Positions 1-1,430 of a DNA stretch of 61,781 nucleotides are shown piece after piece. The translations under genes and the position numbers were made by a program. The DNA comes from an uncultured Alphaproteobacteria bacterium. Lineage in GTDB: Bacteria; Pseudomonadota; Alphaproteobacteria; Bin95. A model generated the notes under the pieces. That model was not told the DNA's origin. It did not search any database and was given only the letters and a program-made list of their open reading frames with translations. The stretch spans positions 1-61,781 of the forward strand of contig CALLKY010000020.1 in assembly GCA_938083135.1 (NCBI GenBank), read 5' to 3'. How positions within the stretch are numbered: position 1 is the first letter of the stretch; each line of letters starts with the position of its first letter.

Positions 1-62
1 GCACCCTTCAAGGCAGCGATCTGATCTCTCTCGCTGGGCGTGAGATGCGTATAGTTCGACAT
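1..62 (-). CDS. IS30-family transposase, N-terminal fragment cut by window edge
   Basis: The reverse strand from the ATG at 62 reads MSNYTHLTPSERDQIAAL and runs off the window. This matches the start of IS30-family transposases, whose N-terminal helix-turn-helix begins with a T-H-L-T-x-x-E-R-x-x-I-x-x-L pattern. Only about 20 residues are visible, so it cannot be said whether the gene is intact. It lies beside the remains of an unrelated IS5-type transposase, so this is an insertion hot spot or a decaying mobile region. Confidence 0.7.
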   Translation of the reverse strand, partial: MSNYTHLTPSERDQIAALKG

Positions 63-109
63 GGCGACACCGTTTCACGTTGTGCATCAGACAGATACCA
101 AATCTGCCC

Positions 110-140
110 GCGGTGTTGCACTTCGCTCCGGAATTCACCG
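110..140. repeat. Possible terminal inverted repeat of the IS30 element
   Basis: Read on the reverse strand, the sequence GAAGTGCAACACC (around 113-125) resembles the terminal repeats seen at several IS30-family ends. It lies about 50-75 bases upstream of the transposase start, where such an end is expected. The other end is outside the window, so this cannot be confirmed by pairing. Confidence 0.3.
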
Positions 141-149
141 GGAGTTCCG

Positions 150-660
150 AAGCGGTCGGACAAGTCGAAGGGCACGCGTCCGCCTTACGATCCGGTGCTG
201 ATGTTCAAGGTTCTGGTCCTGCAGGCCTTGCATAACCTGTTGGAAGAGCAGGCCGACTATATGAGCAAGGACTGCCTGTCATCTTTGGAGATAAAACCCT
301 GTCTCCACCGACCGGCGGCATGACTTGATCCGCCAAGTGGGCCGTGACGTTCGCACCGGCCAATGATGGCGTGCGGCTACCAGAGCTTCTGGACAGGGCC
401 AACACGGCTGGTGACGTGTGGCCAACGGATACCACCTGTCGCTTAGAGAAGAATGCGGCGCTGCCGCAGTAGCGGGGCTTTGTCTCCCGCATCCATCGCC
501 GGAGGCCGAAGGGGCGCGCGCTTGTCGAGCATGTCCTCGCAGATCAGAAGCAGCCCATGGGCTTCTTCATCCGAACCATAGGGGTCGACCGAGCGCAGCC
601 GAAGATCGGTATGGTTAATCTGGCATGCGACATGCGCCAACGGATCTGGCTCACAGTCAG
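150..660 (+). pseudogene. IS5-family transposase remnant (deleted and frame-broken)
   Basis: Two pieces of a DUF772/DDE IS5-type transposase are recognisable. The N-terminal piece (171-281) reads GTRPPYDPVLMFKVLVLQAL followed by an E-Q-A-D-Y segment. The C-terminal piece (about 415-655) reads FVSRIHRRRPKGR, then VEHVLADQK and FIRTIGVDRAQPKIGM, the usual end of this family. The middle of the protein is missing between about 285 and 340. The two parts are in different frames, and a TAG interrupts the C-terminal part near 469-471. The element is therefore inactive. It abuts the IS30-type fragment and lies about 300 bases before a probable selenoprotein gene. Confidence 0.85.
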
Positions 661-923
661 CGAAGCGCCCGCGTAGACGAAATCAGCCCCAAAGGCACCA
701 AAAACGCGCTATAAACCGCTACAAATACGGACGTGAAATCAATGCTATCCACCCATACCCTGATATCAGCCCTGCCTTGGCCGCAAATCCACGTCCTTCG
801 AGGTATCCATCTGCAATCGACGCATAGCCCAATGTCAGACTGCGATCCGGCATCGGTTTTGGGCCGATCGGGCCATCAACCAAGCGGGGACAACACCCAG
901 AAGGTCCTGTAAAGTGCGGTTCT
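661..923. other. No supported gene in this gap
   Basis: Between the transposase remnant and the peroxiredoxin-like gene no forward-strand gene was recognised. On the reverse strand a frame stays open from 973 to the stop at 719-721. It reads rather protein-like (for example LTLGYASIADGYLEGRGF), but it has no clear start codon or ribosome binding site and no family I know. It may be the eroded end of a lost gene. Confidence 0.3.
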
Positions 924-924
924 T

Positions 925-943
925 TTTCGTCAAACGAAAGGAA
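925..943 (+). promoter_or_regulatory. Hairpin overlapping the ribosome binding site of the selenoprotein gene
   Basis: TTTCGT (925-930) and ACGAAA (934-939) form a perfect 6-bp stem with loop CAA. It can be extended by two U-G pairs (924-940, 923-941) that would cover the AAAGGA Shine-Dalgarno sequence at 937-942. This could limit translation initiation at the TTG start at 951. The pairing is seen; the regulatory role is inference. Confidence 0.35.
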
Positions 944-950
944 CTGCAGT

Positions 951-1430
951 TTGATTACAAGACTGGCCGCAGGTCAGACTTTTCCAGACACGACCATCAC
1001 GCTATCCGACGGCAGCACGATGAATCTGCCCGGCGATATGGGTGAAGGCTGGAAAGTCATCATTTTTTACCGAGGTATCTGGTGACCTTACTGTCGACGT
1101 CAGTTGGACGGCTTCAGTAAGATCAAAGCAGATCTCGACACGCACAATATCACGCTGGTAGCAGCCAGCTCCGACCCGCAGGATAAAGCGGCGGAGATGG
1201 CTGAAGAGATTGGCTTCCCGGTTGGCTATGGCGTTAGCCAGGCAGACATCGAAGCCTTGGGTGGTTATTGGGAAGCGAACCGCAAGTTCGCGCAGCCCTG
1301 CGAAGTGGTGCTCTCACCAGAGAACCAGATCGTTCAGCTATCCTACAGCGACGGACCGATTGCACGGACCGAAGCAGAGGACGTGCTGAAGCTTGTCGCC
1401 TTCCGCGAGAAGCAGCGGCAGGGCGGATAG
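951..1430 (+). CDS. Peroxiredoxin-like (AhpC/TSA family) protein with in-frame TGA, probable selenoprotein
   Basis: One frame runs from a TTG start at 951 (AAAGGA at 937-942) to a TAG at 1428-1430, 159 residues, interrupted only by a TGA at 1083-1085. The surroundings read VIIFYRGIW-TGA-PYCRRQLDGF. The TGA thus falls exactly on the first cysteine of the CPYC redox motif typical of redoxin/AhpC-TSA relatives, giving U45-x-x-C48. After the TGA the fold continues normally (ITLVAASSD, FPVGYGVSQADIEALG, FAQPCEVVLSPENQ). Marine alphaproteobacteria are known to carry peroxiredoxin-like UxxC selenoproteins. A SECIS-like hairpin begins 1 base after the TGA. The likely role is thiol-dependent peroxide reduction or disulfide exchange in the cytoplasm, since no signal peptide is seen. 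The alternative is a Cys-to-stop nonsense mutation in a gene next to dead transposons. No selA, selB or selD gene is in the window. Confidence 0.75.
1087..1121 (+). promoter_or_regulatory. Bacterial SECIS-like stem-loop downstream of the in-frame TGA
   Basis: CTTACTG (1087-1093) pairs perfectly with CAGTAAG (1115-1121). Inside it, CGTC (1098-1101) pairs with GACG (1107-1110) around a five-base loop AGTTG. The loop begins 16 nt after the TGA and has G at its second position. Both features agree with the published bacterial SECIS pattern: a small apical loop with G in its first two bases, 16-37 nt from the UGA. Its partner would be SelB. Confidence 0.65.

Follow-up and report, generated by a model that had tools for sequence, protein, structure and literature searches.

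A conserved in-frame TGA as a probable selenocysteine codon in an alphaproteobacterial peroxiredoxin-like gene

Does a TGA codon lying in the middle of an AhpC/TSA-type gene end translation, betray a defect, or encode selenocysteine (Sec)? This question is raised by a locus of the window, i.e. the whole stretch of 61,781 nucleotides from an uncultured alphaproteobacterium that was analysed. Our results support, with a probability of about 0.94, a selenoprotein gene in which Sec insertion would be directed by SelB and a hairpin, Sec45 being the likely attacking residue and Cys48 the resolving one. The original prediction of a probable selenoprotein is strengthened by a conserved TGA, by machinery genes and by a covarying hairpin, from which we infer the insertion of Sec itself.

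Reading frame, predicted fold and chemistry

The frame at 951..1430 (+) contains a sole internal TGA at 1083..1085 (+) and ends with TAG at 1428-1430. Reading the TGA as Sec gives a peroxiredoxin-like (Prx-like) protein of 159 residues (...VIIFYRGIWUPYCRRQLDGF...) with the motif W-U-P-Y-C; this coding sequence is delimited by frame translation, Pfam matches and alignment with relatives. Two Pfam families flank the TGA on both sides, AhpC-TSA (PF00578; 4e-15, 56.3 bits for a cut-off of 26, residues 8-128) and Redoxin (PF08534; 1.3e-12, 48 bits, above the gathering score, residues 7-145), in agreement with the original prediction of a single open frame with AhpC/TSA-type family sequence before and after this codon. 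The TTG at 951..953 (+) is the likely start of the gene, since the ATG starts of relatives fall in the same column and an AGGA lies 8 nt upstream, within a Shine-Dalgarno-like GAAAGGAA picked out by eye (936..943, +). On the 5' side of the gene, window positions 1-700 carry short broken frames that resemble, by eye, transposase remains.

The structure model built from the alignment reached a pLDDT of 93.8, and its best Foldseek matches were peroxiredoxins; compared with 3hjp, the predicted model gave a Z of 20.8 and an rmsd of 2.2 over 152 residues. In profile alignments, Sec45 is the counterpart of the Thr in the TxxC motif of peroxiredoxins and of the leading Cys in the CxxC of ResA. Its partner in the U-x-x-C motif, Cys48 (TGT, 1092..1094, +), occupies the place of the peroxidatic Cys. 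In the CxxC sites of the thioredoxin superfamily, the N-terminal residue attacks and the second one resolves; attack by Sec45 with resolution by Cys48 is therefore the most likely chemistry. The TGA had been assigned to the resolving-motif cysteine, an assignment that has to be revised, as the profile alignment puts Sec where a CxxC-type site has its attacking, N-terminal residue.

For Sec insertion, the catalytic cycle, the substrate and the reductant, we infer the following scheme. SelB with Sec-tRNA-Sec would bind the hairpin that starts just 3' of UGA 1083, and insertion of Sec at this codon would yield a 159-aa protein of peroxiredoxin fold with a Sec-Pro-Tyr-Cys active site. The selenolate of Sec45, as the likely attacking nucleophile, would reduce a disulfide or a peroxide; Cys48 would resolve it through an intramolecular Se-S bond, which a thiol reductant, e.g. 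thioredoxin or glutathione, would reopen.

It is possible, with the odds rather against it, that the selenoprotein is a true peroxiredoxin-type peroxidase, in which Sec45 or Cys48 attacks peroxide, and that it does not act as a thiol:disulfide oxidoreductase. Only the chemistry separates this possibility from the preferred reading, and the two are not mutually exclusive. The predicted fold is clearly that of a peroxiredoxin, the alignment of Cys48 with the peroxidatic Cys points the same way, and peroxiredoxins with Sec (TxxU) are known (PMC13188914). Nevertheless, the canonical PxxxTxxC is absent, Arg41 standing for the motif Pro and U45 for the Thr in the profile alignment to 6q5v. Moreover, Pro116 aligns with the catalytic Arg of SiPrx (6q5v). 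With attack by Sec45 as the preferred reading, the hybrid peroxiredoxin/thioredoxin-like site raises a testable question, namely which residue attacks.

Relation to known selenoprotein families

The window gene files best as a convincing addition to the known UxxC Prx-like selenoproteins and not as a new kind of system; this placement was made by PF00578, the motif and the family description. The Prx-like thiol:disulfide oxidoreductases (PF00578, UxxC; reference member WP_010940744.1) are a selenoprotein family listed in the literature as predicted with high confidence (PMC13188914 Table 1); Global Ocean Sampling data contain them as 'Prx-like 1' (PMC2398784), and a Prx-like UXXC family was described in the Sargasso Sea (PMC1088965). 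The window protein shares with the Prx-like UxxC selenoproteins the AhpC-TSA domain, a peroxiredoxin-related fold, a SECIS element directly after the UGA and Cys homologues in other bacteria, whereas the site G-x-W-U-P-[YF]-C-R-x-Q-L (S-F-C in one relative) and a family-wide AGUUR loop are features of its own clade, found here in Alphaproteobacteria. One might go further and regard this clade as a yet-unnamed, Sec-only alphaproteobacterial subfamily with a hybrid site in which either residue could attack peroxide, leaving the other to resolve, and with its own fixed AGUUR loop; we consider this doubtful.

Other families come close to a lesser degree. The redoxin family protein (PF08534, UxxC; PMC13188914 Table 1), which is 'Prx-like 3' of PMC2398784, also has the UxxC of the window protein, which scores above the gathering score there, but PF00578 scores better (56 vs 48 bits). 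With ResA/TlpA, the CxxC position and the preceding W are shared, and ResA is the best PDB profile match (1e-10); however, in the window protein no membrane anchor precedes the domain, which begins right at the N-terminus, and the overall shape of the predicted model is nearer to peroxiredoxins. Similarity to the SelL-related redox proteins (NF040769) is weak and covers residues 9-87, at 25 bits for a cut-off of 120, and no NCBIfam model takes the window protein above its cut-off. The list of selenoprotein families has become much longer since 2006. In a survey of that year, formate dehydrogenase was the only selenoprotein known in Alphaproteobacteria (PMC1794560).

Conservation of the TGA and selenocysteine machinery

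In the class search, TGA stood at the identical codon in all 25 Sec-type genes, i.e. the gene of the window and 24 relatives of 38-75% identity, and no Cys form was found among the site-spanning relatives in this identity range. Across the 385 genomes of this search, the TGA was present in every match with an E-value of 1.5e-24 or better (38-49% identity when the own genome is set aside), and the internal stop was absent from the weaker matches (30-36% identity). In the own family, eight genomes, the own one included, had a site-spanning form, all with TGA, the family search and the order search drawing on the same 14 genomes. Since 24 relatives share the codon, a sequencing error hiding TGC or TGT at 1083-1085 is excluded in practice. 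Residues R41, G42 and W44 before the TGA, and C48, Q51 and L52 after it, were all invariant in the alignment.

The Cys homologues (L057-L119; Actinobacteria, Bradyrhizobium, Ktedonobacteria and others), named 'peroxiredoxin(-like) family protein', are 31-38% identical over most of the length and have the same RG-x-WCPYC site, with TGC or TGT for the TGA of the window. Their alignment supports the claim that the TGA lies exactly at the first Cys of CPYC. The motif sites were Cys codons in 80 of 80 cases (60 TGC and 20 TGT), a count to be read in the knowledge that the peptide pattern used to scan genome contigs specified Cys at this position, which limited the hits to Cys forms; one Cys form recovered without a Cys-requiring pattern (L048) also has a Cys codon there. 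A phylum search with a strict cut-off added a single relative, which has Cys, and is of little use for judging how widespread the gene is; the relatives in plasmid records were all distant. One genome of the same class encodes a protein identical to one from an uncultured Bradyrhizobium, which lends indirect support to the alphaproteobacterial setting of the original prediction.

These comparisons make it very improbable that UGA is a true stop and that the gene yields a short peptide from its N-terminal part, a 108-aa protein from TTG 1104, or both: a mechanical frame does exist from this TTG, but the conserved frame crosses the TGA with active-site residues on both sides, and the Cys homologues read straight through the site.

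When the Sec and Cys forms were placed in one tree, the Sec rows formed one stretch between two long-branched Cys groups, with 2 label changes; because of these long branches, the direction of the Sec/Cys change is unreadable from the tree. The window protein (L007) groups with those of genomes G009 and G011, and the form carried by five further genomes of this family (genus g2; L025-L029) is only ~40% identical and lies elsewhere in the tree. This split suggests a transfer or an old duplication.

The assembly that carries the window (4.15 Mb, 99.99% complete) contains one tRNA-Sec (67 bits, above the Rfam cut-off), which ARAGORN also calls, with anticodon TCA, together with selA (531 bits), selB (452 bits) and selD (289 bits), all above curated cut-offs. 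The Sec machinery on which the original prediction depended is thus present in the same assembly as the gene. selA and selB adjoin on contig C138. In this genome, selD is fused behind a pyridine-nucleotide oxidoreductase domain (L019:235-2400, +), an Ndh-SelD fusion of a type known from marine metagenomes (PMC2398784).

Among the genomes with the Sec form, selA was above the cut-off in 25 of 25, against 1 of 20 genomes with a Cys-form relative only and 1 of 19 listed without a relative (2/39 combined). The clade represents a clean natural experiment in Sec/Cys exchange, with the Sec machinery accompanying the Sec forms but not the Cys forms. In three genomes (G310, G125 and G020), no more than about 5 kb separates the Prx-like gene from selA; in G310 and G125 this cluster also includes selB and tRNA-Sec, and in G020 it includes tRNA-Sec. 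The genus mates G010 and G013 have selA without the Prx-like gene at the cut-off used, which indicates that the gene is dispensable. In G003, a fragment of the Prx-like gene was found that does not span the site, and selA was not found in this fragmented assembly.

Equally improbable is that UGA, through suppression or an altered genetic code, specifies Trp or Cys and no Sec is involved. Read-through of the codon is needed in any case, but UGA is an ordinary stop elsewhere (of the window's 56 open frames with 250 codons or more, 20 terminate in TGA), all genomes with the UGA form have selA, and, as regards Trp, homologues carry Cys and not Trp at the site.

The hairpin downstream of the TGA and other candidates

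Under the preferred reading of the TGA as a Sec codon, the signal for insertion would be a predicted SECIS hairpin at 1087..1121 (+), with a lower stem (1087-1093/1115-1121), an upper stem (1098-1101/1107-1110) and an AGUUG loop (1102-1106, +). The bacterial SECIS (bSECIS) rules ask for a loop of 3-9 nt with a G within its first two positions, an upper stem of 4-16 bp, a spacing of 16-37 nt and an MFE <= -7.5 (PMC13188914). The hairpin of the window falls within them, with 5 nt in the AGUUG loop, G2-U3, 4 bp, -14 to -16 kcal/mol and 16 nt from UGA to loop, the latter being the lower limit of the model. Positions 1083-1125 fold at an MFE of -15.5 kcal/mol, and none of 200 dinucleotide shuffles was equally stable. 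Relative to codon-choice randomisation, stability gave z = -2.7 in the window and mixed results family-wide (mean z -1.1), so that stability alone was not taken as proof. Likewise, of all the TGAs that the window contains, 29% get through a bSECIS-like filter (11% with the G-G/U loop rule), and a lone bSECIS match was therefore rejected as stand-alone evidence. It is conservation in the relatives that lifts the hairpin above chance.

The conserved SECIS core (1096..1112, +) consists of a stem of up to 6 bp and an AGUUR loop, with compensatory changes across the family; in the window, the inner 4 pairs form and the fifth is an A/G mismatch. Over the 25 genes, 94.7% of the cells of the six-pair apical stem were paired, and two-sided changes took G-C to A-U and U-A to G-U or A-U. 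The covariation score of this stem was 0.299, compared with 0.159 +/- 0.024 in shuffles (0/500 as high, a count that is not a probability because the sequences are related) and with at most 0.118 for slid stem partners. Thus, the hairpin of bacterial SECIS geometry that had been proposed right after the TGA obeys the bSECIS rules and covaries in its upper stem. The codons tell a similar story: Gln at +6 is CAG and Leu at +7 is TTR in 25 of 25 Sec-type genes, although TTR accounts for 16% of Leu codons in the remainder of these genes; the AGUUR loop freezes the Leu codon as TTR. In the Cys homologues, the Gln-Leu codons after the site are mostly CAG-CTN. The long lower stem of the window occurs only in its nearest relatives and is not common to most of the family. 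RNAalifold, run on the SECIS alignment, preferred a slightly shifted pairing, without two-sided changes, and an Rfam search of the window gave no match.

That the gene is simply broken, by a nonsense change or by a miscall of TGC/TGT, has a negligible probability: only short frames occur upstream, some of them decayed-transposase-like by eye, so that the region has seen decay, but 24 relatives in other genomes, whose frames are otherwise intact, have TGA at the same codon, the hairpin covaries, and the 25/25 conservation refutes this explanation.

Automatic annotation tends to cut or drop UGA genes, and the enzyme may therefore be missing or truncated in annotations. Further Prx-like frames were seen in the genome of the window. 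On contig C4, a second Prx-like protein of 219 aa (L008:1360-2016, +) has FRGVW-U-PYC, with its Sec codon at 1618-1620 followed by a strong hairpin (-20.3 kcal/mol); this genome thus very probably encodes a second protein with Sec. A third Prx-like protein, on contig C1 (L009:1219-1818, -), has FYRGGW-U-PYC and a hairpin after the TGA. In two relatives, deiodinase-like frames recognised by eye, with SYT-U-PPF (L137:6020-6388, -, with an upstream extension, and L138:1582-2448, -), adjoin selA/selB/tRNA-Sec and the Prx-like gene, forming small selenoprotein clusters.
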